Source: a virus. From it: 57,441 nucleotides of DNA. The DNA lies in IMG/VR virus record IMGVR_UViG_3300020445_001222, positions 1 to 57,441 of that record; one strand, written 5' to 3'. The position numbers and the translations under genes were made by a program. Shown piece after piece: positions 32,292 to 57,017 of this stretch. Below the pieces are notes generated by a model. It saw nothing but the letters and a program-made list of their open reading frames with translations. It did not search any database and was not told where the DNA came from. Each line of letters opens with the position of its first letter. Within the stretch, counting starts at the first letter, position 1.

Positions 32292-34190
32292 TTATCCTCT
32301 TTTTAGCTCTCCGTTGCTATAACTAGATGTTACTTTAAATCCAACGCCAGAAATCTTCTCACCTGAAGATATTGTGTCTTTAACCATATTTATCGTACTT
32401 TTTGAAACATCAAACTCAAGATATAAATCTTTTAATCCAACTACATCATTGGATTCTGGGAATGCTTGAATTTCAATGACATCATCTGCTACAACAGTAC
32501 TTGTAATTAGAGTCGTTGATAAAATAACTTCTCCTTTTTCATAATCAACAACACCTGCAGATTTTATAACAACTCTATTTTCTCCAGTTTCTTCGATTGG
32601 TTTAACAATTGAAAGAACACCTTTCTTTTTGTCTGGGTTTGGAATATCTGTCAAATAAACAACGTCTGATTCGTTAACAATCTTAAATCCACTACTTTTT
32701 ATGTTAAATCCTGCAGGATTTACATGGAATTTGTTACCAAAACACAATTCATACTGTGCTTCTTGATTTATAAGTGCTCTTAAATTTCTTCTGACTATAA
32801 CTCTAGTAATATTAGAGGTTATAGAGCGATCTACATCATCAACTACATTCAAAATCTTACTATATTTAAATCTACCACCAAATTTACTCAATTCTACTGA
32901 ATCTGAGTAAGATTGGAGAGCATTTACAACATTTGTTTTTAGATTATTAACATTTGTAACTTGAGATGAGTTATAATAGACTGAAGAATCCACTTCAACA
33001 TAAAGAATTTTAATATCAACAAGTTTTTGGTTGATTCCTGTTAATGAATAACTCTTTAATTTACTTAAAATAAAATCTTTATCAAAATCAGACACAAAAT
33101 CGCCATTTTTTGGTTTAATACTGATTTTAACAGTACCAAATTCAGGTGGATCTAACTCTTCACCACCTACAACTGAGATAGATTCGGTGTTTGGGTAGAT
33201 GTTTTGTATAATTGCCTCATAATCTCTTGCTGTAACTGCTCTAAATTGTGCAGCATACAGTCTTGGAGCAAAATATTTAACAGATTCTATTGGTTCTATG
33301 TCTGTTCCACTTGTACTTTTTGTAAGTGTGGTTAATTTTGCTGTTGTTACAGTAACAGGATTGTTTAAATTGTCTTTAAATGTACCTGAAAAAGAGAAAT
33401 TAGCAGCACCATTACCTCCTGATCCATCTGTAACTATGTAAGAAATGAATATTTCTGTACCATTTTCCAATTTTTTACCAAAAATACCATCACCAAAGAG
33501 TAATTCATACTTTTCATCTTGTACTTCTTGAATTAAATATATCTCTGAATCGCTATCAATGCCAATAATGTTGTCTACGAGAGAATATTCTCTCCCAGGA
33601 CCAGTTTCTCCATCACCTCTTACCGTAACAACGATGGTTTGTATGTCTATAAATGAGTTATCAAGTAAAAAACGTTGATCTAAACTACCATCAACCTTAA
33701 ATTTCTTCCTTAAAAGCGATCCCTGATACACTAAAACTGGATTTTCAATGGTTCCAAACTGTGCTTTACCATTTACTACTGATGTAGTAATAGTTTCTGG
33801 TATTGAAAATATATAAGAACTATCATTTGTTGCACCAACACACACAGGTCCTCTTGCTTCAAGTGTTATTGATGGTAAACTTGTAGAACATTCTACATCT
33901 AATAGTATACTTGCCCTAGAAGCTGTTCTAGAACGAGGAACATATCCTATTCCTCTTGCTAAAGAGACAACATTTTCCCTTAAAGTTGCAGAATCTAAGA
34001 AAGATTCATTAACAATCATATTCGCATTAAACGAATTTATGTAAGTATTATATGCTAAAGTGTTTAAAAGAACCGAAAAGTTGGATCCTTCAAAATCAAA
34101 ATCAGTAAAAGTAGAGTTTGCTCTCAGATAATCTTTTAACTGGGTCTTGATTTGATCAAAATCTAAGTTTGTAAATTTAGTAAAAGGCAT
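32292..34190 (-). CDS. 6: Baseplate wedge protein gp6
   Basis: 632 aa, near the T4 length of 660. The start PFTKFTNLDFDQIKTQLKDYL followed by DFDFEGSNFSVLLNTLAYNT and SLARGIGYVPRSRTASRA is diagnostic for gp6 (baseplate J-like). It dimerises to form the wedge ring of the baseplate. It sits two bases after the gp25 stop and two before the gp7-like start. Confidence 0.95.
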   Translation of the reverse strand: MPFTKFTNLDFDQIKTQLKDYLRANSTFTDFDFEGSNFSVLLNTLAYNTYINSFNANMIVNESFLDSATLRENVVSLARGIGYVPRSRTASRASILLDVECSTSLPSITLEARGPVCVGATNDSSYIFSIPETITTSVVNGKAQFGTIENPVLVYQGSLLRKKFKVDGSLDQRFLLDNSFIDIQTIVVTVRGDGETGPGREYSLVDNIIGIDSDSEIYLIQEVQDEKYELLFGDGIFGKKLENGTEIFISYIVTDGSGGNGAANFSFSGTFKDNLNNPVTVTTAKLTTLTKSTSGTDIEPIESVKYFAPRLYAAQFRAVTARDYEAIIQNIYPNTESISVVGGEELDPPEFGTVKISIKPKNGDFVSDFDKDFILSKLKSYSLTGINQKLVDIKILYVEVDSSVYYNSSQVTNVNNLKTNVVNALQSYSDSVELSKFGGRFKYSKILNVVDDVDRSITSNITRVIVRRNLRALINQEAQYELCFGNKFHVNPAGFNIKSSGFKIVNESDVVYLTDIPNPDKKKGVLSIVKPIEETGENRVVIKSAGVVDYEKGEVILSTTLITSTVVADDVIEIQAFPESNDVVGLKDLYLEFDVSKSTINMVKDTISSGEKISGVGFKVTSSYSNGELKRG

Positions 34191-34191
34191 A

Positions 34192-34593
34192 TTATCTTGT
34201 TGCTTCTAATAGGAATGTGTAATTTTGTACTGGTGCCGATAATCCAACTAACGCAAACGAAATATGTACCTCAAAAGCATTATCATCTGGTTGTGCGTCT
34301 ACTTTAACTCTTAAATTGGATACTCTTGGCTCAAAATTAAGTATTGATTCTTTAATTTCACGTTCAATTACCGATGCTGTAGCAAAATCGACGAAGTCAA
34401 ACAATGATTTACGAACATTTGATCCGAAGAGACTATCAAAAAATCTTTCTCCACGAATAGTTTGAACGATATTACTTACTGATTTACGAATACACGCAGT
34501 ATCTTTTAATACAACTAGGTCTTTTGTAACAGGGTGTGGTTCAAAAGACAAACTTATATCTCTAAATCCTCGTGATACTAATTGATCAGGCAT
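34192..34593 (-). CDS. 25: Baseplate wedge protein gp25 (lysozyme-like fold)
   Basis: 133 aa, matching T4 gp25 (132 aa). The GPW/gp25 pattern is clear: RGFRDISLSFEPHP, DTACIRKSVSNIVQTIRGERFF and a C-terminal FALVGLSAPVQNYTFLLEATR. It joins gp6 and gp53 in the wedge and helps start sheath polymerisation. It is the most upstream gene of the late block in this window. Confidence 0.93.
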   Translation of the reverse strand: MPDQLVSRGFRDISLSFEPHPVTKDLVVLKDTACIRKSVSNIVQTIRGERFFDSLFGSNVRKSLFDFVDFATASVIEREIKESILNFEPRVSNLRVKVDAQPDDNAFEVHISFALVGLSAPVQNYTFLLEATR

Positions 34594-36367: not shown

Positions 36368-36580
36368 TCAATAAGAATGTTCATCTAAAGAGGGTTTTTC
36401 TTTATGCATTTCTTTTACTTCGGTATATGATAAGTCTTCTTCTTTATATGATGTATGCATTAGACCAACCATTGCTTTAAGTGTAATCCAAGTTATTCTA
36501 AAATCCTCTTCTTTTACTGAATGTAGTATGCATTCATCCTTTGCATAGAAATGATATACAGTTTCAGTGTCTTTAACCAT
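36368..36580 (-). CDS. 70-aa conserved cyanophage hypothetical
   Basis: MVKDTETVYHFYAKDECILH, SVKEEDFRITWITLKAMVGL, then EEDLSYTEV. The VYHFYAKDxCILHSV and TLKxMVGLM patterns are shared with small proteins I recognise from other T4-like cyanophages. No functional motif. It overlaps the AbrB-like gene by 8 bp. The stop is directly followed by the -35 of the next promoter. Confidence 0.75.
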   Translation of the reverse strand: MVKDTETVYHFYAKDECILHSVKEEDFRITWITLKAMVGLMHTSYKEEDLSYTEVKEMHKEKPSLDEHSY

Positions 36581-36752
36581 CTTTCTTTTCTGATAAAATT
36601 ATTTCATCCTGATCGGATAAGTCTAATTGTAGCACAGTTCCTTCATACCAACCCATATCGTTAACCATCCACTCAGGTAAATCAATCATAAAGTTTCCAG
36701 TTATAGGATCGACTTCTACGGGCGAAAAATTTTCTGCGGAATTTTTTTGCAT
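36573..36752 (-). CDS. AbrB/MazE-like swapped-hairpin DNA-binding protein
   Basis: 59 aa. PVEVDPITGNFMIDLPEWMV followed by GWYEGTVLQLDL and EIILSEK matches the AbrB/SpoVT/MazE beta-hairpin (dp.tG...i.lPe.....gw..Gd.l.l). AbrB repressors are widespread in cyanobacteria, so the phage copy may bind phage or host promoters. Start chosen at ATG 36752, with AGGAG 11 bp upstream; an earlier out-of-frame ATG lies between. Confidence 0.6.
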   Translation of the reverse strand: MQKNSAENFSPVEVDPITGNFMIDLPEWMVNDMGWYEGTVLQLDLSDQDEIILSEKKDG

Positions 36753-38971: not shown

Positions 38972-39194
38972 GATAATAGGAGTGTCGGTTTACAAGGTGG
39001 GACTTACAGGACGTAATTTCTCTGCTGAACAGAGACAACCATAGATCCTTGCCCTGAAAAAATGATGTGGGACTTACATCTTCAAAACTCGCAATGAGTA
39101 CAAGAGGTTCGTCTTAAAGAGATTTCCACAGCGTCACCAAAAATGGAATTACTGAATTGGTTCTCACCCGTGCCTTGCGTTTGCCCACAATGTT

Positions 39195-44386: not shown

Positions 44387-44771
44387 CTCGTCGAGATGCA
44401 TGCAGTATATGTGCGCAGATATGTGCGCGTTCTCGTCGAGATGTACATACGTGACGCACATGGGCTCGTCGAGATTACATGTGTATATGCAGGCTCGCTC
44501 GACTAGATGCACGTATGTGTGCAAGCTCGTCGAGATTCATCATGCATAATACTGTAATGAGAGCTCGTAGAAATCTTGAGAGTCTCGTCGAGAGTAATAT
44601 TCCTCGTCGAGATCATGTAAGTTATCGTGATTAGATCTAGAAGTCTCGTCGAGATCACCTTGAGTAGTATAGTCGAGATCGTACCAGTCGCAACAGTCGT
44701 CGTACATAGTCGAGATGAATTAGAATACTTATAGTATAGCAGGTTCTCGACTAGATTGCAAGCTCTTCGAG
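44387..44771. repeat. Array of about 13 copies of the 9-bp palindrome CTCGTCGAG
   Basis: Exact copies start at 44387, 44432, 44465, 44526, 44584, 44603 and 44645. Variants are at 44498 and 44746 (CTCGACTAG), 44564 (CTCGTAGAA), 44669 and 44706 (ATAGTCGAG) and 44763 (CTCTTCGAG). Most are followed by AGAT or AGA. Spacing is 17-45 bp and irregular. The copies look like binding sites for a dimeric protein. Confidence 0.85.
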
Positions 44772-44827: not shown

Positions 44828-45126
44828 ATTGTACTTATAAGATTACAAGTACTTTCCGATCCTGTGTGTTACGAAATCGCGACCCGTGGGTTGACAAACT
44901 CCGCGTCTCATGGTACGCTCGCTAAGTCAACATAATATCTGAACATTAAATCATAATACTTTTTACCTTCTTTATGCACATATTATAACACACTATAAAC
45001 AATATTGCAATGTACTTGTACTTATGGTATAATTAAAAGAACCAGTTATTTAGTCAGTTTACCAAAACCTATTCTCAATGTACTTGTACTTATAAAATAC
45101 TAATAAGTACAATCTATAAGTACAAT
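44828..45126. repeat. Cluster of five ATTGTACTTAT repeats in both orientations
   Basis: Forward copies are at 44828-44838, 45016-45025 and 45084-45093; the last two lie in a perfect 18-bp direct repeat CAATGTACTTGTACTTAT at 45008-45025 and 45076-45093. Reverse copies ATAAGTACAAT are at 45103-45113 and 45116-45126. The group surrounds the plus-strand promoter of the HNH gene, as operators would. Confidence 0.75.
45005..45033 (+). promoter_or_regulatory. Plus-strand promoter TTGCAA-17-TATAAT with operator in the spacer
   Basis: -35 at 45005-45010, perfect -10 at 45028-45033. Its spacer is largely one copy of the 18-bp repeat. It points to the HNH gene, giving a leader of about 155 nt with further repeats. 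Confidence 0.6.
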
Positions 45127-45195
45127 GATGGGTTCATCGGTAGAAGTTATTGGTATAACTGGGTTTTGCCCTTTTATTATGTGTTGCTCTCTAAG

Positions 45196-45714
45196 ATGAG
45201 AAAGCATAAAGTATTGAATGAAATAGAAGACTTAGAGGACTTCAGTGGTTATTCCATTGATACTGATGGAAACCTTTGGTCTCTTAAGTATAAGGTTCCT
45301 AAGTTAAGAAAACCTGTATGGTCTGGTAAAGATGAGTGTGCATATCTTACCTGTAGACTTAGAGATGATAACGGTAAAGCAAAGACTCTCTATATTCATA
45401 AGTTAGTTGCATTAGCATTTCTTCCTTGCGATGATCCTACCCGAAGGGTGATTCATAAAGATAAGAATCGAAGTAATAATCGCCTTGAGAATTTAGAGTG
45501 GGTTGCCAATATAAAAGAGAAGAAGAAAGCATTAGACTTTGTATTACAAGAAGAACTGGTAAATAAGATACAACGTATACATGTAGTTGCTCAAAAGAAA
45601 GGACTTCGTAATGTGTCGTCTGATTCATATCAGTTTACCACGAAGATGATCGAAGATGCTATTGAAGCATACATTAAAGAGTATGGACTACGTAAAATAG
45701 ATCGCAGTTTGTAA
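45196..45714 (+). CDS. NUMOD4-HNH homing-type endonuclease
   Basis: 172 aa from the ATG at 45196; a TTG at 45166 is also in frame. Residues 1-40 carry a NUMOD4 pattern (LEDFSGYSIDTDGNLWSL). An HNH core follows: YIHKLVALAFLP, then VIHKDKNRSNNRLENLEWV at about residues 85-103 with the H-N-N arrangement. The C-terminus is a helical DNA-binding region. Free-standing enzymes of this kind cut related phage genomes and spread their own gene. It is on the opposite strand to nearly all neighbours, which suggests recent entry. Confidence 0.85.
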   Translation: MRKHKVLNEIEDLEDFSGYSIDTDGNLWSLKYKVPKLRKPVWSGKDECAYLTCRLRDDNGKAKTLYIHKLVALAFLPCDDPTRRVIHKDKNRSNNRLENLEWVANIKEKKKALDFVLQEELVNKIQRIHVVAQKKGLRNVSSDSYQFTTKMIEDAIEAYIKEYGLRKIDRSL

Positions 45715-46146: not shown

Positions 46147-46440
46147 TTAGGTTATAGAATATGAATATCCATCGAACCTCTCCATAATATTAAGCATCGT
46201 TTCTTTACCGTAGCAGATTATAGTATACTTTGGGTATGGGGGTTTTTCGCTTCCATTATGATCTTGATATGTAAAGGTATACTTTTCTTGATCTTGGCAC
46301 CAATAACAATCTGTTACAGTGCTATCTGTTTCAACCGTAACTGTACCATTAATCTCTTGGGGGATTTCTTCTTCAAGCTTTAAGGGTTTCATAGATTCTA
46401 CTAGGTGATCGACACAGGATGCGTATTCTGAATCATTCAT
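46147..46440 (-). CDS. 97-aa hypothetical protein
   Basis: Start chosen at ATG 46440 (MNDSEYASCVDHLVESMKPL), which overlaps the upstream stop in the sequence ATGAATGA; the longer open frame to 46545 lies inside the oxygenase gene. The second half (TVTDCYWCQDQEKYTFTYQD, KYTIICYGKETMLNIMERF) is beta-rich with CxxC. Last gene of the metabolic operon. Unrecognised. Confidence 0.62.
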   Translation of the reverse strand: MNDSEYASCVDHLVESMKPLKLEEEIPQEINGTVTVETDSTVTDCYWCQDQEKYTFTYQDHNGSEKPPYPKYTIICYGKETMLNIMERFDGYSYSIT

Positions 46441-46930
46441 ATTTAAGTGCGACTGTGAATCGGTGTTTGTTACGGAAAGCAGTTGCTCTGTGCAATATGG
46501 ATGCATCAAAGAAACATAATCGATTTGGTTCGGGTGCAACTGCATAGGACTTGTCGTTTACATAGAACTCTGTCTGTCCTAAGAAGTTAGGTGTCCACAT
46601 TTGTTGATGTGGATAGTATAGGAAGGTCATTCCTTGATCTGCATCTGTATGGAAGTATGGTACTTCATTCTGTGCGAACAGATTAACATACATTCTAACC
46701 AGACAAAGATCTGGCACAAGGGATTGAGTCTTCTCATAGAAAAAACGGTACATTAGTTCTGAAGATTTAATTTCAGCACTCATACCTGTAGGGGCTACAT
46801 CATTATCATCTTTTTCTCCAAAGGTGTAGTTTGCATGTTGGCAATACATCAAAACATTCTTTTGTTCTTCTGCAGTTAACCAATTGTCCCGTATATGAAT
46901 TGGAACATCCTTACCATAAACAAAATCCAT
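46433..46930 (-). CDS. Fe(II)/2-oxoglutarate oxygenase (prolyl-hydroxylase-like)
   Basis: 165 aa. Double-stranded beta-helix core with the HxD metal motif YFHTDADQG (about residues 91-99), a LGQTEFYVND strand (about 117-126) and the distal LHRATAFRNKHRFTVALKY (about 146-164), supplying the third metal ligand H and the 2OG-binding R. It is a minimal single-domain enzyme. The substrate is unknown. The TAATG overlap with the next oxygenase upstream suggests joint expression. Confidence 0.8.
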   Translation of the reverse strand: MDFVYGKDVPIHIRDNWLTAEEQKNVLMYCQHANYTFGEKDDNDVAPTGMSAEIKSSELMYRFFYEKTQSLVPDLCLVRMYVNLFAQNEVPYFHTDADQGMTFLYYPHQQMWTPNFLGQTEFYVNDKSYAVAPEPNRLCFFDASILHRATAFRNKHRFTVALKYE

Positions 46931-47538
46931 TACCTTGTTCCGTATGAAGTTACTGCGAAGTTAAATGAAATGGTAATACGTGGATTACCTGGTGTTGGTT
47001 TACTTGCCTTAACCTCATGCATTAAGTATGAAGGGAACATTAATAGGTCTCCTTCATTAATATCAGGAGAAATTGCTTCCTCATAATTATGGGAATCTAA
47101 CTCTAATGAATGAGATCTGGTAATTCCCATTGGATCTGTAAAGGTCAATGGACTGTGTACCTTCTTATCATAGCATAGAAAATGAACACATGCAAAATGA
47201 TTTGGATCTAAAGAATCGCCAATATGATTATGGGATTCTTGCCACTCCTCATCTTCATAACAATTATACCAACATTCATCGACCTCCAATTGAAACTTCT
47301 TATCAAAGAAAGTTTTAATTAGATCATGGTATTGTCTTTGTAGTTCTCCTTGAGATATGAAGAACCGATTAATATCGTCTCTCTCATGACTTGTCTTAAT
47401 TTTTGTTGTTAACCATCCTTCTGGTGGTGTTAACGTATTCTTTGTACTATTAATGAAAGGTAAAAGATCAGTCTTCAACCTTTCATTGTTCTCAACCTGT
47501 CCTTGATAATAAGATACAGGAAATATTGTATGTCGCAT
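46930..47538 (-). CDS. Fe(II)/2-oxoglutarate oxygenase, phage 2OG-FeII_Oxy_5-like
   Basis: 202 aa. WQESHNHIGDSLDP (near residue 99) gives the first histidine, with an acidic residue supplied nearby. GDLLMFPSYLMHEV (about 162-175) and RITISFNFAV (about 187-196) give the distal histidine and 2OG-binding arginine. This pattern is typical of the oxygenases abundant in marine T4-like phages. The substrate is unknown. Confidence 0.8.
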   Translation of the reverse strand: MRHTIFPVSYYQGQVENNERLKTDLLPFINSTKNTLTPPEGWLTTKIKTSHERDDINRFFISQGELQRQYHDLIKTFFDKKFQLEVDECWYNCYEDEEWQESHNHIGDSLDPNHFACVHFLCYDKKVHSPLTFTDPMGITRSHSLELDSHNYEEAISPDINEGDLLMFPSYLMHEVKASKPTPGNPRITISFNFAVTSYGTR

Positions 47539-47556
47539 TACTGTCCTCTATGTGTT

Positions 47557-47904
47557 TTAACTGTCGTTACCAGAAATGTTATCATACTCTGCATAATGAT
47601 CTGGTGCCTTTTTATCTCTCCTCTTGACAAACTTCAATTCATGCCAAGAAGCTTCACAACATAACAATAATGTATGAATATATTTGTGCGGATCATTATT
47701 AGCATGCACACAGGATGGTTTTCTTCTAATACCAGTTTCTATCGTAATATAACGTGGAACTGGATTCCATCCAAACTTAACTCTTTTCTCATTGTCTACT
47801 GGATCTCCTTTAAAATAGACCCAACCTTCATCCTTACCATACTCACCTCGATCCCAGATTACGTAGTCATCAACTTCTGGTTCGTATTGTATGTTATCAT
47901 CCAT
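47557..47904 (-). CDS. 115-aa conserved cyanophage hypothetical
   Basis: MDDNIQYEPEVDDYVIWDRG, EGWVYFKGDP, RYITIETGIRRKPSC, LLLCCEASWHELKFVKRR. This is a beta-barrel-like pattern (DYVxW..GEGWVYFK..YITIE...L..CY..W.EL.YVK) that I recognise in many marine T4-like phages. No assigned function. It overlaps the 55-aa gene by TGATG. Confidence 0.75.
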   Translation of the reverse strand: MDDNIQYEPEVDDYVIWDRGEYGKDEGWVYFKGDPVDNEKRVKFGWNPVPRYITIETGIRRKPSCVHANNDPHKYIHTLLLCCEASWHELKFVKRRDKKAPDHYAEYDNISGNDS

Positions 47905-48071
47905 CAGTCGGGAACTGCTTTAAGGTCATTAGGATTGAATCCTTCATTCATCAATTGTTCTAATCTAACCTTACATTGTTCCTTAGTGAGTCCAGTACAA
48001 TTTGGCTCATCTATTTTAGTCCATCCCATTGTGGTTTCTTGGATGATCTGCCATGTTTTAATTGCTGCCAT
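47904..48071 (-). CDS. 55-aa hypothetical protein
   Basis: Start chosen at ATG 48071, one base after the oxygenase stop (MAAIKTWQIIQETTMGWTKI), rather than the ATG at 48107 inside that gene. Contains CTGLTKEQCKVRLEQLMNEGFNPNDLK, a conserved-looking helix-loop. In marine phages similar small proteins sit next to the VYFK gene. Confidence 0.7.
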   Translation of the reverse strand: MAAIKTWQIIQETTMGWTKIDEPNCTGLTKEQCKVRLEQLMNEGFNPNDLKAVPD

Positions 48072-48072
48072 G

Positions 48073-48894
48073 TTATGAAAATCGAATTGGTGCGGTGCGG
48101 GTGTCAATATTTCCTACCATCATTGCATTAAATGCAATGGTGATGCGAGGAATACCATTATAATCACGATATGAATTTGCATTTACTCCATGTGGCAACC
48201 ACGATGGAAATATAAACAAACTACCATTATTTACAATTGGTGAAACTATACCTGAATTATGAGCAGCAAAGTCTTTATTGACATTTGGTTCAATAACTCT
48301 TGCTCCAGGTCTTGGATCACTAAAAGTTGTTGTTTGGCAAAATTGTGTTCCAACATTTGGACAACTTATATGCCATACTCCACTAAAGAGAGAATTTGGG
48401 TGGGTATGATTCATATGAGCATAGTATGGTTTAAATCCAACATTTGCCCACATTGAAGTCAAATAGACTTGTTCTACCTTATAATCATAATATTGAAAGA
48501 CCTGTGCAGCTTCTCTAAGTAAAAAGTTATGTACATCTTCAAAACCTTCTTTTTGATGAAGATCATCGAAACTGTACCAACCTACAGGATCTGGTGCTCC
48601 AGGTTCTCCTGAAAAAGTTCCTGCTTTCTCATCTTTTGTTGCTGCTATGATTCTCTCTTTAACAGAATCAATGAATTCTGTATCATCAACTCTTGATTTA
48701 AAGAGTAAAGATGGAAAAAGAACACCGATATCTCTATCAGTTACTTTTATTTCTTTTTCCTCCTCAAAGGGAGATACTGGTCTTTCATTATGTATTTCAT
48801 TAATTCCAGTATTAATGGTAAATCCTCCAGCAGGACCACCATTCGGAACTTTTGAATCACTATTCCATGATAATTTATTATCTTTAGATGTCAA
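48073..48894 (-). CDS. Fe(II)/2-oxoglutarate oxygenase, 2OG-FeII_Oxy_5 type
   Basis: 273 aa. HMNHTHPNSLFSGVWHI (about residues 159-175) is the diagnostic metal-binding stretch of this family. GSLFIFPSWLPHGV (about 224-237) and PRITIAFNAMMVG (about 248-260) carry the distal histidine and the 2OG arginine. The N-terminal 50 residues are glycine-rich and variable. The substrate is unknown. It begins a sub-operon 43 bp after the small halogenase-partner gene. Confidence 0.85.
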   Translation of the reverse strand: MTSKDNKLSWNSDSKVPNGGPAGGFTINTGINEIHNERPVSPFEEEKEIKVTDRDIGVLFPSLLFKSRVDDTEFIDSVKERIIAATKDEKAGTFSGEPGAPDPVGWYSFDDLHQKEGFEDVHNFLLREAAQVFQYYDYKVEQVYLTSMWANVGFKPYYAHMNHTHPNSLFSGVWHISCPNVGTQFCQTTTFSDPRPGARVIEPNVNKDFAAHNSGIVSPIVNNGSLFIFPSWLPHGVNANSYRDYNGIPRITIAFNAMMVGNIDTRTAPIRFS

Positions 48895-48937: not shown

Positions 48938-49111
48938 TTAAACAAGGAACTCATCCTTGTAGTAATCAACTGTAACCTGCATTTTGGTAGCCTCCTTAAC
49001 TAAACTGTTATAATATTCTTGTCTCTGGTTCCACTTGATAATTTCAAGTTCAGATCGAATCATATAACTCCTCATTAGTTCTACAAATTGTTCAATTTCT
49101 TCATCATTCAT
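48938..49111 (-). CDS. 57-aa helical partner of the halogenase gene
   Basis: MNDEEIEQFVELMRSYMIRS then ELEIIKWNQRQEYYNSLVKE. It overlaps the halogenase stop in ATGAATGA, so it should be made in step with the enzyme. It may be a flavin-delivery or stabilising partner, but that is only inferred from coupling. Confidence 0.7.
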   Translation of the reverse strand: MNDEEIEQFVELMRSYMIRSELEIIKWNQRQEYYNSLVKEATKMQVTVDYYKDEFLV

Positions 49112-50876
49112 AAGTAACGAAACCTTTGGGTCTTTGTTTCCATTTTTGTTTCTTATCTCTCTGAGACAATGGAATACCTTTTCTCTTTTCTTTTTTTACC
49201 TTTTCTTTAATACGATTAGGCATTTGATCATATATCCCTTGTGGCACATTATCTTCTGTCCCAACAAAAGTCATATCCTCATTTGATCCGTGTATATTCT
49301 TAGATAAGTATTCATAAAGAGATGGACAAGTATCTGCATAAATTATATATTTTTGTTGAGTATCTTTATATAATTGATCTAACCTATCACAATGCGTATC
49401 TGGATCAAATTCTTTCAAGACTCCCAATGCTCTATGTAATTTCGCATCAATTGGAGAATAATTCATTCCTGCAGCAATAACAGGGAACCCTGCGTTACCC
49501 TCAGTATACTGATGATACTTATGTGTAGATATAGCATAGTATAACAATTCAAGATTCTCTCCCATGTCAGTTTCATAGTTTAATGAATTATTAACTGTTG
49601 GGTCAATTCTTACTCTCTCTGTTACATCCTGCCAGTATGGTGTATCATCTCTTGAACTCAATGCATAGTGCATACCAACAAAGTTTGCATGTCCATAGAA
49701 AACATTTGTAAGTGCATGGTTAAGTGAATCTCTATCCCACTGATTAACAAAACCTTTACGTAATATGGAGATTAATGATAACAACCATTCATATGTGGTC
49801 ATTAATCCTGTACTCTCTAATGGTTCAACAAATCCACTTGATAAACCAATTGCAACTACATTCTTCTCCCATACCTTTTCATGTATTCCATTTCTCATTG
49901 TAATGGGTTTGAATTCAAGATCCTCAATAGGGATATTATCATAACGTGTGCGGATGTAATCCTTGAACTCATCAAGAGCTTCATCATCACTAATATACTT
50001 ATCACTATAAACATACCCTGCACCAATACGTGACCATAAAGGTATGTTCCATGCCCATCCATTGTTGAGAGCAGTACAATTAGTATATGGTTGTAACTGA
50101 TTATTTTTATCTGTATATGGTATATGAGTTGCCCATGCTTTATTATTTGGAATTATATTCTCAATAGTATTAAATTTAACTCCCAATGCCTCCTCTAACA
50201 ACAAACTCTTGAAACCAGTGCAATCAATGTATAAATCAGCAGTTAATTTCTGTTTATCTGATAAAACCAGAGACTCTACTCCATCATCATTTGTATTAAC
50301 CTCTTCAACTGTAGAATTAATTAACTTTACACCCTTTGGAAGACATACTTTCTTTTTAAGATATTGTCCAAATGCGGTAGCATCAAAATGAAATGCAGTA
50401 TCAGTTGCAAAGGAAAAACCAGGTGTCTTACCAGTGCTATCATCAGACATTTTATTGCTCTCTGCAACTGCTGTAATAGGATAATGGCAACGTGAGTATG
50501 AATTACTATCAAGACCACCTCTATTTCCTTTTAAAAACCACCAATCGTTTGGTCCTACTTGTTCTATTGGTCTTTGGAACTCTCCAAATGGATAATGAAA
50601 TCCTCCTGTATCTTTTCCCAACCAATCTGTAAATTTAATGCTTAATTTATAACTACCATCTATCTCTGTTAGAAAATCTTTATCAGTAAGACCTATCAAT
50701 GATGTCCAATGTTTTATACCACCAAGAGTACTCTCTCCAACCCCCAATGTAGGAAAGTCGGGACTCTCAATGATGGTAACATCCATCTTTGGAAACTGTG
50801 TTGCAAATGTTGCAGCAGCCATCCAACCAGATGATCCACCACCTACGATGCATACACTCTTAATCTTTTTGCTCAT
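49104..50876 (-). CDS. FAD-dependent tryptophan-halogenase-family protein
   Basis: 590 aa, a little longer than PrnA (538 aa). GGGSSGWMAAATFATQFP (residues 12-29) is the FAD-binding dinucleotide fold. SYKLSIKFTDW (about 80-90) carries the lysine that in PrnA binds the chlorinating species. GWAWNIPLWSRIGAGYVYS (about 271-289) is the GWxWxIP signature that separates halogenases from mono-oxygenases. FVEPLESTGL (about 351-360) carries the conserved glutamate. The C-terminal 30 residues are basic. The substrate may be tryptophan or another indole or phenol; it needs FADH2 from a host reductase. Confidence 0.88.
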   Translation of the reverse strand: MSKKIKSVCIVGGGSSGWMAAATFATQFPKMDVTIIESPDFPTLGVGESTLGGIKHWTSLIGLTDKDFLTEIDGSYKLSIKFTDWLGKDTGGFHYPFGEFQRPIEQVGPNDWWFLKGNRGGLDSNSYSRCHYPITAVAESNKMSDDSTGKTPGFSFATDTAFHFDATAFGQYLKKKVCLPKGVKLINSTVEEVNTNDDGVESLVLSDKQKLTADLYIDCTGFKSLLLEEALGVKFNTIENIIPNNKAWATHIPYTDKNNQLQPYTNCTALNNGWAWNIPLWSRIGAGYVYSDKYISDDEALDEFKDYIRTRYDNIPIEDLEFKPITMRNGIHEKVWEKNVVAIGLSSGFVEPLESTGLMTTYEWLLSLISILRKGFVNQWDRDSLNHALTNVFYGHANFVGMHYALSSRDDTPYWQDVTERVRIDPTVNNSLNYETDMGENLELLYYAISTHKYHQYTEGNAGFPVIAAGMNYSPIDAKLHRALGVLKEFDPDTHCDRLDQLYKDTQQKYIIYADTCPSLYEYLSKNIHGSNEDMTFVGTEDNVPQGIYDQMPNRIKEKVKKEKRKGIPLSQRDKKQKWKQRPKGFVTYE

Positions 50877-51910: not shown

Positions 51911-52801
51911 TTAAATACCTCTATCCTGTGTACTTTCATCTACGATGGTATCTAATTCAGATAACTTTGGATACATTCCTTTAAATGTATCTGCATTTTG
52001 TTTCTGTTTTTTCATAGCATCGTCCAGTTCTATTCTACCTGTAGTTTGATTAAATTGCAATAGCATTTTTCTACCTGCTGATTTAGCATCTTTTCTAAAC
52101 TGTTCTGATAAACCAGTTGTATCATTTGAAAATGTAGTTACATGATCACTTAACCATCCAGTACATACATACTTACTACCCTTAGTAACAATATCTCCTC
52201 TATGGTGAAAATACCATGAAGCAGGGAAACAAATTAATTTACCCTGTTTTGGTGCCACACTGAATATATCATCCTTTCCTGGTCCTACTCTAAATTGTGT
52301 TTCTCCACCAGAAAAATCATCATTCAGATACCACATATATGTGAATAATCTTCTTGCACATAGAACACTTCCAGAATCTGTGTATCCTCTTAAAGGGAAT
52401 ACAATTGTATCTAAAATTGGAGAAACATCATCATCAGCATGCCACCCATATCCTTCTCCAACATTAGTCCTTTGTATTTGATATCCAGAGTCAACTAAAT
52501 CTCCTTTTGATTGAACATCATCACCTAATCTTTCTTTTATGAACATTAGATATTGTTTTACATGGGGAGAAAGTTTCTCAAAAAAGTAATGATCATATTC
52601 TTCCCACTCTGGCCATTGAGATATCCATAAATCAGTTGATTTTTTGATGCTCTCTTGGGTAGCTTTTCCCTCAGTATCAGCTGCTGTAATACCCTTACTC
52701 TTACGCTGATCATATTCAAACTTATCAATGATCTCTTTACATTTATCTGCAGGTATTACATCATCATACTCTGCTATCATGTCAGAAAAATTAGTTATCA
52801 T
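51911..52801 (-). CDS. Fe(II)/2-oxoglutarate oxygenase, prolyl-4-hydroxylase-like
   Basis: 296 aa. YGWHADDD (about residues 119-126) is the HxD motif, and FTYMWYLNDDFSGGETQF (about 153-170) is the P4H-type core strand. WYFHHRGDIVTKGSKYVCTGWL (about 197-218) supplies the distal histidine and the lysine that binds 2OG, the lysine form being usual in prolyl hydroxylases. A basic helical tail of about 70 residues follows. The N-terminal helix (DVIPADKCKEIIDKFE) is family-like. Confidence 0.85.
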   Translation of the reverse strand: MITNFSDMIAEYDDVIPADKCKEIIDKFEYDQRKSKGITAADTEGKATQESIKKSTDLWISQWPEWEEYDHYFFEKLSPHVKQYLMFIKERLGDDVQSKGDLVDSGYQIQRTNVGEGYGWHADDDVSPILDTIVFPLRGYTDSGSVLCARRLFTYMWYLNDDFSGGETQFRVGPGKDDIFSVAPKQGKLICFPASWYFHHRGDIVTKGSKYVCTGWLSDHVTTFSNDTTGLSEQFRKDAKSAGRKMLLQFNQTTGRIELDDAMKKQKQNADTFKGMYPKLSELDTIVDESTQDRGI

Positions 52802-53322
52802 GTTAATGTATCACCTTTTGTTAAATTAAATGCTAAAATTATTCTTCTTTCCATTACAGGTGGACTGAAATGATATATTTCTGGATCCCAAATCAATACA
52901 TCACCACATTCAACTTTAGAAGTTGTTGTATTACATCGATGTAATGGATCTTGAAAATAAGTAGATTGTCCTTCTGTTAAGAACAAACAACCAGAACCAC
53001 TTATATTTGTTCCTGCATGATTATGTATTGGATGAAATCCACCAGGTTCATATACTTGAACCCAAGAATTATCAAATGCTTCTGGGGGAGCTAAAGGTTC
53101 TAACACTTTGTAAATCCAAGGAACTACATGTGCTCGGTTATTTGAACCATAAGTTGTCCAAAGTCTGCCATGATCAATGTACTTCCCATACTTCTTACAC
53201 CATTCCTCACATTTATCAATCCACCCCTCTGGGATGGAAATGTTATCCTTAATAATAATTGAAGGTGGGAAAAGTTGATGATGCTTTGTACCTTCTTTCT
53301 TTTCTTCAATTTCTTCAGTCAT
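52798..53322 (-). CDS. Fe(II)/2-oxoglutarate oxygenase, 2OG-FeII_Oxy_5 type
   Basis: 174 aa. GGFHPIHNHAGTNISGSGCLFL (about residues 94-115) carries the metal ligands, and YHFSPPVMERRIILAFNL (about 151-168) the distal histidine and 2OG arginine. It lies directly between the methyltransferase subunit gene (8-bp overlap ATGACTGA) and the P4H-like oxygenase (ATGA overlap), so it is locked into the same transcript. Confidence 0.82.
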   Translation of the reverse strand: MTEEIEEKKEGTKHHQLFPPSIIIKDNISIPEGWIDKCEEWCKKYGKYIDHGRLWTTYGSNNRAHVVPWIYKVLEPLAPPEAFDNSWVQVYEPGGFHPIHNHAGTNISGSGCLFLTEGQSTYFQDPLHRCNTTTSKVECGDVLIWDPEIYHFSPPVMERRIILAFNLTKGDTLT

Positions 53323-53719: not shown

Positions 53720-56700
53720 AAAATATCAGGAATAGTTCTGAATAATTCTTTTGAGTTAGTATTAACTATTCTGTTCTTTAGAACCATTTGATGTACCTTA
53801 TCAGATCTTAAATAATCTGCAAGTTTGTTACTATCTTCTTCCGAAGATGTTTTTATAATAACTGTAGATCCACTGATAGCATGATCATATGGTTTAATAC
53901 GAACTTGTCCAAAACCTTGTCCACCATATTTACTATTCATTACAACTCCATGTTGATTAACACAACAAGTATACTGAGACTTATCAACATTAGTAACTTG
54001 CATCTCTCCATTTTTACCACCCATTGTGGTTATCATAGGATACTCCCCCTCAATCAACTGATTTAAGTTCAAATCTCCACGTTGATAACGATGTCCCATA
54101 TTGTTAGGAACATCTGAAACAAAATCTGGATTAGTAAATCTAATGCAAGTATCAGCAGTAATTTGAATATTCTTTACTGTACCATCAAGATAGGTTAATT
54201 TTGTTGTACCAGTATACCCACGTTTCCATGTACAGATACATGTTTCTGTCATTGATATAGATGGAAATGTATCAGGAGATAATGCTTCAATAGAAACAAT
54301 ACCTGGTGTTGAAAACAAAGTTCTTCTAAACTTTGATGTGGATTTGGCAAAGTGTTTTGATCTGATTACTTCTGATACATAATCAGACCTATTCATTGCA
54401 TTTAGATAGAAATGTGTATCTAAAGTTTTTGCACATCCACCTGTGGTTGCACCTGTTACTGTAGATGTATCCGTATATGGTGGATTGCCAACTGTCGCAC
54501 TAAATTGCATATTGTAATTAGAAAGATCGTCAGTTACATTAATTTTAGCATTAATCTGCTTTATTGCATAGTGATGTGTAGGATCATTCTCCCATACCAC
54601 TATATCATCAGGTTCCCAATCCTTATTCTCTATTGCATATAAAGAATGAAGTCCAGAGGGATCTCCATGTATATACAACTTTTCAGTTGTATACTTTTTT
54701 AAAGGAATTATTCTATCAAGAATATCTAATGAAAGTGTCTTTTGATTCTTCCTAGTAGTTGCAAGTTTCTGTAAAGTTCCACATTCATCTTTAGACATAG
54801 AATGTTCTATATCTACAATCCCTTGATCGATTCTATTAATCCATGATTTAGGTATAACCTTCTGATCTAAACAAGTCTTAATAATACCAGTAGTATCTCC
54901 TGTATCATGTTTATAATATTCTGAATTAAGAATACTATCCACACTTTTAGGTGTTGATTTATTCTTAATCATATGAAAGATGACTAATCCTATTCTCTCC
55001 ATATATGCTTGAATAGTCTCTGTCTTCTGTGCTATCTCAGACTTATCATAGTGTGTAGAAAATTTAGATGAACTGGTAAGTTTCTTATTACTCTTTGCGT
55101 TAGCATTGTTCTCATTTACTGTAAAAGAACTCCATGAAGATAACTTTGCACTCTTCTGAAAGTTATCAAATTCAATGTCTCCTAACTTAAGAAAATCTAA
55201 TTGAGATACAATACCTGATATTAAAGATACTGCACTGTCTACATCATTAGATAAGATTTCATTTAGACGTTCTGGAGTTACTTCTTCAAAATCAGAGAAG
55301 TATTCAAAGATAGGAACTAAATCAAGAAGTTCATACTCAGATTCTGTTAACTCATGATTCAAATCACATGCAGTAAAATACATGTTTCTGATTGTAGTAA
55401 AACAACGTTCTGGACAAAAATCAATTACATCCCAAGAGTTTCTCTTTGTGGATCCACCACGAAAAGCAAACTGTGTCCATTGTTCTCTTGATGATCCTTC
55501 TGCACAATTCATAACAGTATCAATACCTTCTGCAGTTAAACCAAGAACATTTGCAGTTTTAGTTAAAATAACTGTAGATGTATTAGTATCAATATGTGAT
55601 CGGATTGTATCAGAATTTTCTCTAGTATCTGAAGTTACAACTAATGGTTTAAATCTTGTTGATTTAAAATAATCTACAAGTGCATGACATGATGCCATAG
55701 AAGGCAAAGTTATCATTATATGTCTAGAATTCTTTAATATTCTTTTGTTATACTTTATTCCATCTTGAGTAAAAACTTTACTCATAAATTCATCAACTAA
55801 TATTGGTTCAACAAAATCATCTTCATCCTTGTTTACCCTAAAAATGTTACCCATCGCATCAGGATCATCTCCATACAAATCTTGATATTTACTAGACTCA
55901 TACTTTGCAAGAATCAATCTCATCTGTGGAGAATTTGCATACTCTTTTATACCTTGCAGTCTATACAACTGCTCCTCAAAGTATGAATATACAAATCTAA
56001 ATCTAGGAAAATCCTCTAAGATTTTATTTGCAGTTCCTGAGACATACAATACTTTTGTATCAAAGTGATCTCTAAGACTTATCCATTGATCTCCCTCATA
56101 TCCAAGATGTGCTTCATCAAATACTATCAGATCAATATTACAAGGTAAGTTTTTATATCTGTTAGGAGCTTGAATAGTTGAATATAAAACTATCTGTTTA
56201 TTAGTTCCCATCCAATACTCTATCTCACTCTTAAACTGATCTACCTCTCCATCACGAATATCAATGAATACAATATTATCAAAGTTTTTAAACTCTTGGG
56301 AATCATCTCTCCATGATTGTTTAGGAGAGTTTCTATATGAAACAACTAAGGATACTTTAACACCACTCTCTACAATAGAGGAAAGAACCATTGTAGATTT
56401 ACCTGCACGACACTTAGCAAATAACAAATACTCTTTCCATTCATCCCATGTTGAAGTTATCTCAGATACAAACTCTTCCTGATGTTTGCGAAGTTTACGA
56501 TATTCTTTTTCCTCTACATTATCTGTAAAGAACTCTTCTTCAATAAGATCCTTAACAACGTCGATACTTAAACCATAACCTTCTTCAATTCTAAAGGTCT
56601 CTCTACCAGTTTGTGTAATACCACGTTGTTTTTTTAACCATCTATGTATCTTATGATCTCTACCATCAAAATCTGTCCACCATCCTCTCTTTATTCTTGC

Positions 56701-56835: not shown

Positions 56836-57017
56836 TGTCTCCTAATAAAAAACACGTGGGATGTTAGTTCTTTCTTCGGTTGCGAACCGAGAGGCACATC
56901 CATCTCCTCGTTTATTGGTGGAGGAAAACAAAACTGAGGGGACAGTGCATTACCTTAACATCATGTCTCTGCTTCTAAGTCAGAGTAGTTAGGAACCTCG
57001 TTTGTTTTCCTGTAAAT
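56836..57017 (-). other. Structured leader RNA of the helicase/methyltransferase operon
   Basis: About 175 nt between the promoter and the ATG, with no reading frame. A perfect 10-bp inverted repeat, GGAAAACAAA (56923-56932) with TTTGTTTTCC (57001-57010), is extended by GAGG/CCTC and encloses a CTCTG/CAGAG hairpin (56967-56985). Nearer the gene is a TCGGTT/AACCGA hairpin (56876-56890). CCTCGTTT occurs twice (56906, 56996), allowing alternative pairing. It does not match any riboswitch I know. Confidence 0.55.

Follow-up and report, generated by a model that had tools for sequence, protein, structure and literature searches.

Operators located between the -35 and -10 boxes of repressed bacterial promoters are a known arrangement, and plasmid iterons are directly oriented repeats near AT-rich DNA and DnaA boxes. 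T4-like cyanophages are among the most abundant marine viruses and are thought to be lytic; to our knowledge, neither an operator system nor a mapped replication origin has been described for them. In T4 itself, the origin oriE has 12-nt repeats whose role is not established (PMC3016281). The locus described here is a dense array of a short repeat in a marine viral sequence, and would best be explained as a multi-operator control region of an early promoter, bound by a putative protein, a reading to which we assign a probability of roughly 0.6.

The window, the whole stretch of DNA analysed, is an IMG/VR virus fragment of 57,441 bp. It belongs to a T4-like cyanophage of the Kyanoviridae type, and its gp25 and gp6 are 52-60% and 57-63% identical, respectively, to their homologues in S-SRM01 and S-T4 (Kyanoviridae). 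Both genes lie about 10 kb downstream of the array. The array, its promoter and these landmarks are as follows.

32292-34190, minus strand: gp6 baseplate gene, a syntenic landmark
34192-34593, minus strand: gp25 baseplate gene, a syntenic landmark
44387..44771, plus strand: array of 13 sites, consensus CTCGTCGAGAT read on the plus strand and AATCTCGACGAGA on the minus strand
44387, 44432, 44465, 44526, 44584, 44603 and 44645, plus strand: the seven exact copies of CTCGTCGAG
44498, 44564, 44669, 44706, 44746 and 44763: the six variant sites, with 1-2 mismatches
44387..44534, minus strand: five sites past the 3′ side of the small ORF, in TG/CG-alternating sequence
44540..44707, minus strand: small acidic ORF of 55 aa, MYDDCCDWYDLDYTTQGDLDE...ELSLQYYA, with several sites inside
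44733..44761, minus strand: P_A, predicted sigma70 promoter, TTGCAA-17-TATACT
44756-44761, minus strand: -35 box of P_A, TTGCAA, followed by the 17-nt spacer
44733-44738, minus strand: extended -10 box of P_A, TGC-TATACT, 31 nt from the -10 to the ATG
44746..44754, minus strand: one-mismatch site CTAGTCGAG, lying in the spacer between the -35 and -10 boxes of P_A

The first-pass annotation had counted about 13 copies, seven of them exact, in 385 bp of CpG-rich sequence, and this count was reproduced at 44387-44771, with a CpG observed/expected ratio of 1.66 in the array versus 0.43 in the window. Its description of a true palindrome in a non-coding island did not survive: the dyad is imperfect, its centre is fixed and one orientation is preferred, and the supposed island holds a predicted minus-strand promoter and a conserved small ORF. 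With up to one mismatch allowed, CTCGWCGAG has 11 matches in the window against 1.5 expected (maximum of 5 in 100 shuffles), and 10 of these fall inside the array. All seven exact copies in the 57,441-bp record lie in the array, every one in forward orientation and none in reverse, with no exact copy elsewhere in the record. An even spread of the 9-mer over the genome, which the annotation had named as evidence against the array, is likewise not seen in the complete phage S-SRM01, where the 11 exact copies form three clusters at 85.6-91.0 kb, all within 5.4 kb of a 240,842-bp genome. The five-site extension downstream of the small ORF is shared by close relatives of the window, such as contigs L167 and L029. 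Site spacings show a period peak of 10.3-10.5 bp (scan-corrected p about 0.01, similar spacers collapsed), a helical phasing that rests largely on the 31-33 bp class and drops to p 0.12 without the 29-35 bp spacings. A search of Rfam gave no match.

Elsewhere in the window, two short intergenic stretches (39000-39067 and 56858-56914) match, at 95-98% identity, unannotated sequence of P-SSM2 (55969-56090) and several single-cell marine virus records. They are far more conserved than their surroundings and have no Rfam match. Translations judged by eye also point to one halogenase-like ORF in the window, together with several ORFs resembling 2OG-Fe(II) oxygenases (49104-50876, 46433-48894 and 51911-53322).

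Viral contigs were screened for three exact copies falling in a span of about 100 bp, and also for two copies, a scan that mixed in GC-rich coding repeats. With the coding repeats separated by GC content and open frames and set aside, more than 100 IMG/VR contigs of about 40% GC were found to carry arrays. These contigs come from one collection and are mutually related, a relatedness that clustering reduces but does not remove. The array copies in them are nearly always followed by AT. Searching isolate phages by blastn with the array regions of the window and of L167 gave no array match; the isolates were reached instead through contig L163 and through the protein family phrog_661. The same layout of promoter, small ORF and array is found in S-SRM01, S-T4 and P-SSM2, in the last at 66.0-66.3 kb (PSSM2_098). 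In S-T4 and P-SSM2 the word at or adjoining P_A is CTCGACTAG. S-SKS1 has the same layout with a different word, ACGAGATAC, and its ORF has ARDT in place of DLDE. S-CAM7 carries a different array (CGCAGTATA) upstream of its phrog_12516 homologue. The S-T4 record contains two array loci, at 2.7 kb and 174.3 kb; counted across the record ends they are separated by 9.5 kb, and they are not a simple identical end duplication. No paper naming the repeat was found in the literature, and the words promoter, palindrome, motif and intergenic are all absent from the S-SRM01 paper.

The first-pass annotation had taken presence in close relatives with the same neighbours as a test, and among relatives fetched through the left-hand neighbour gene (phrog_7799) only 1 of 28 carries an exact array. 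We read phrog_7799 as not being the syntenic partner of the array, since what accompanies the array is the promoter, the small ORF and, in most relatives, phrog_12516, which comes after the small ORF in 79 of 87 loci and was not found in the window.

In the window P_A reads TTGCAA-TCTAGTCGAGAACCTGC-TATACT (44761-44733). Across relatives, -10 boxes were picked blind to the motif, and all promoters are predictions. A good -10 box, usually with an extended TG, lies 25-42 nt before the ATG in 93 of 101 unique upstream regions, and in about 84 of these 93 a site (up to one mismatch) begins 15-18 nt before the -10, directly following a -35 box of TTGCAT, TTGCAA or TTGACA. No site in the 93 regions starts between 10 nt upstream and 9 nt downstream of the -10 start. 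The next peak lies just before the ATG, and more sites are found within the ORF and upstream. When promoters are grouped at 70% identity, a site begins 15-17 nt before the -10 in 32 of 38 divergent clusters, so that repeated sites occupy a fixed core-promoter position across divergent relatives. Exact sites in the spacer occur in both orientations (15 versus 7 clusters), whereas sites outside it are mostly in one orientation.

The small ORF, unannotated in the window, is conserved. Its relatives, found in most array contigs (more than 100), comprise 101 distinct coding sequences, and its annotated homologue is PSSM2_098 of P-SSM2. It is a real gene, because variation in its C-terminal part falls mainly at third codon positions (heterozygosity 0.19, 0.16 and 0.41 at positions 1, 2 and 3). 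The protein has no Pfam match. Inside the LDE codons wobble heterozygosity falls to 0.07-0.19, and CTCGACGAG, which accounts for 5 of 110 LDE codings in other ORFs, is dominant here. Motif copies number 295 upstream of the small ORF, 153 inside it and 19 downstream. The nearly frozen wobble bases and the many upstream copies show that the word is constrained as DNA, beyond coding need.

From this arrangement we infer protein binding, repression and a phage-encoded binder. The imperfect dyad of 13-15 bp, AATCTCGACGAGA(TT), would be recognised by a DNA-binding protein at many places in the array: at the copy locked between the -35 and -10 boxes of the predicted early sigma70 promoter P_A, at copies several turns of the helix further upstream, at those immediately preceding the start codon and at those within the small acidic gene. 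Because both boxes of P_A are good, the protein would probably act as a repressor, switching P_A off or tuning its activity, and the extra sites would add cooperativity or block transcription along the leader. Among the roles suggested in the first-pass annotation, a multi-site binding platform is the best reading, as the 9-mer is kept while its spacers drift in many phages and the sites are precisely placed in the promoter; nothing specific was found for partition, packaging or a site-specific enzyme. In S-T4 and P-SSM2 the array is present with no annotated homing endonuclease beside it.

A second site cluster counts against this reading. In S-SRM01 (L270, 38140-38260) and its relatives L163, L166 and L179, three copies spaced at 38-40 bp surround a TGTGCCACT..AGTGGCACA hairpin in the gap separating two small genes, upstream of a phrog_1653 gene. 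No promoter was recognised by eye in this short intergenic gap.

A candidate for the binder emerged when small S-SRM01 ORFs were compared over six other genomes for genes linked to the array.

36573..36752, minus strand: phrog_661 protein of 59 aa, predicted AbrB/MazE-like swapped-hairpin fold

The phrog_661 gene was the only plausible one shared by the array-bearing S-T4, S-SKS1 and S-CAM7 that S-SM2, Bellamy and S-SCSM1 lack, apart from a weak 24-residue match in S-SM2 (E 0.004). It lies downstream of the small ORF in all five loci with at least 10 kb of downstream sequence, at a distance of 2.8-9.9 kb, and in 12 of 18 loci with 7-10 kb, compared with 4 of the 28 loci fetched via the neighbour gene, which are mostly without an array. 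The search that started from phrog_661 led to the P-SSM2 array. For the structure model of the phrog_661 protein (pLDDT 86.6), the closest folds are those of MazE, AbrB and SpoVT, with E about 0.1-0.3 and probability 0.97-1.0. The candidate is nevertheless a lead only, because the protein is acidic, the gene is far from the array in S-CAM7, and ACG-2014f has phrog_661 but no such array in the 24 kb examined.

The surroundings of the array resemble an origin.

44829..45125, strand not assigned: second repeat family, TTGTACTT/AAGTACAA, around an AT-rich (0.74) stretch at 45001-45100
44891..44919, plus strand: P_div, conserved opposite-strand promoter-like element, TTGACA-17-TACGCT
44972..44980, plus strand: DnaA-box-like TTATGCACA; the window has two TTATNCACA, of which this is one
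45166..45714, plus strand: HNH homing-endonuclease-like ORF, downstream of P_div

The locus may therefore be considered as a phage replication origin of the T4 oriE type, with P_div supplying a primer into the AT-rich DnaA-box region and the array serving as an iteron platform, which is possible but rather unlikely. More tentative still is the specific proposal that P_div, the DnaA-box/AT-rich region and the array form the first recognised origin of a T4-like cyanophage, with the array coupling firing to the early small gene. The DnaA-box-like word TTWTCCACA occurs 0.40 times per 790 nt on the upstream side of the small ORF against 0.018, an enrichment of about 22-fold, and AT content peaks there at 0.75; the locus holds two of the four copies in S-SM2 and three of the nine in S-SKS1, exactly 21 bp apart. 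P_div occurs in 59 of 85 loci versus 1.2% of control windows, and where isolate regions were read, its strand has no annotated gene immediately after it; as predicted from sequence, it is an opposed promoter leading into an AT-rich region. The second repeat family adjoins P_div and is common to L167 and L256. The position upstream of the gp6 baseplate gene is also of the oriE type: in all seven isolates gp25-gp6 follow the locus at a distance of 2.6-13 kb, and T4 oriE lies 1.7 kb upstream of gene 6. Beyond the array, TATAAATA late-promoter words occur in 23 of 85 loci versus 1.6% of controls. Against an origin, the TTWTNCACA box is present in only 39% of loci, and the small protein, read side by side with RepEA and RepEB by eye, has no evident similarity to them. 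GC skew, which the first-pass annotation had proposed as a check, is not distinctive at the locus in seven genomes. S-SM2, Bellamy and S-SCSM1 have P_div-like elements, and some of them DnaA-like boxes too, but neither array nor small ORF; much of the platform is thus retained in these phages, where an origin would not require the array. A replication origin was also among the roles which that annotation had raised.

Stoperator-like road-blocks, in which an asymmetric, transcription-oriented site halts elongating RNA polymerase in the leader, the intergenic gaps and the small gene, are unlikely. Sites outside the spacer are mostly oriented with transcription, and those of S-SRM01 cluster around the promoter, within one short gap between genes and at gene ends, the same distribution and orientation rule as for mycobacteriophage stoperators (PMC9283540). 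The spacer sites, however, take both orientations, the sites are packed in clusters rather than dispersed, and the phages that carry them are regarded as lytic.

A decoy or sink for a host DNA-binding protein is improbable: the array does offer many near-identical sites in one place, but a passive sink, also named in the first-pass annotation, would not explain or need a site locked into the -35/-10 spacer, and a paired-site scan of 84,980 bacterial and archaeal species gave 81 scattered matches, none titled as a cyanobacterium. A mere coding repeat, in which acidic DLDE units of the small protein were duplicated in DNA, fits 149 of 153 in-ORF copies being in the DLDE frame and is very improbable, being largely refuted by the copies outside the ORF (in the window, five downstream). 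One in-ORF copy of the window in another frame (SRR) and the frozen wobble bases also count against it.

Read as a multi-operator control region, the array would represent a conserved control locus whose site word differs between phages while its layout is constant. Because the laboratory phage P-SSM2 carries it, the locus can be tested directly in culture, and it is relevant to what the T4 oriE iterons do. Next to T4 oriE, inside gene 5 (L289 2903-3070; T4 79402-79569), the 24-nt repeat units look like coding sequence for a repeated C-terminal part, which bears on doubts about those iterons.

Compared with T4 oriE (AF158101 79355; iterons, RepEA/RepEB), both loci lie upstream of the baseplate gene gp6 and combine a direct-repeat cluster, very small ORFs, a nearby homing endonuclease (segC in T4) and an early promoter opposed to the late-gene direction. 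Their sequences are unrelated, the repeats of T4 are spaced at 24 nt within gene 5, and the cyanophage small ORF is on the late-gene strand; the array is missing in relatives that keep the platform. Plasmid iterons share the directly oriented repeats near AT-rich DNA and DnaA-like boxes, whereas here spacing is irregular, no Rep gene was found, and sites overlap a promoter and an ORF. Operators and stoperators of Cluster A mycobacteriophages are likewise short and asymmetric, are found both at a promoter and within short gaps between genes, and mostly point in the direction of transcription; the cyanophage sites differ in their clustered array, a spacer-locked site in either orientation, a nearly palindromic core and their occurrence in T4-like phages. 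Spacer-located operators of repressed bacterial promoters share the site between the -35 and -10 boxes and a spacer of 17-18 nt, to which the cyanophage locus adds up to a dozen more sites, several of them inside coding sequence.
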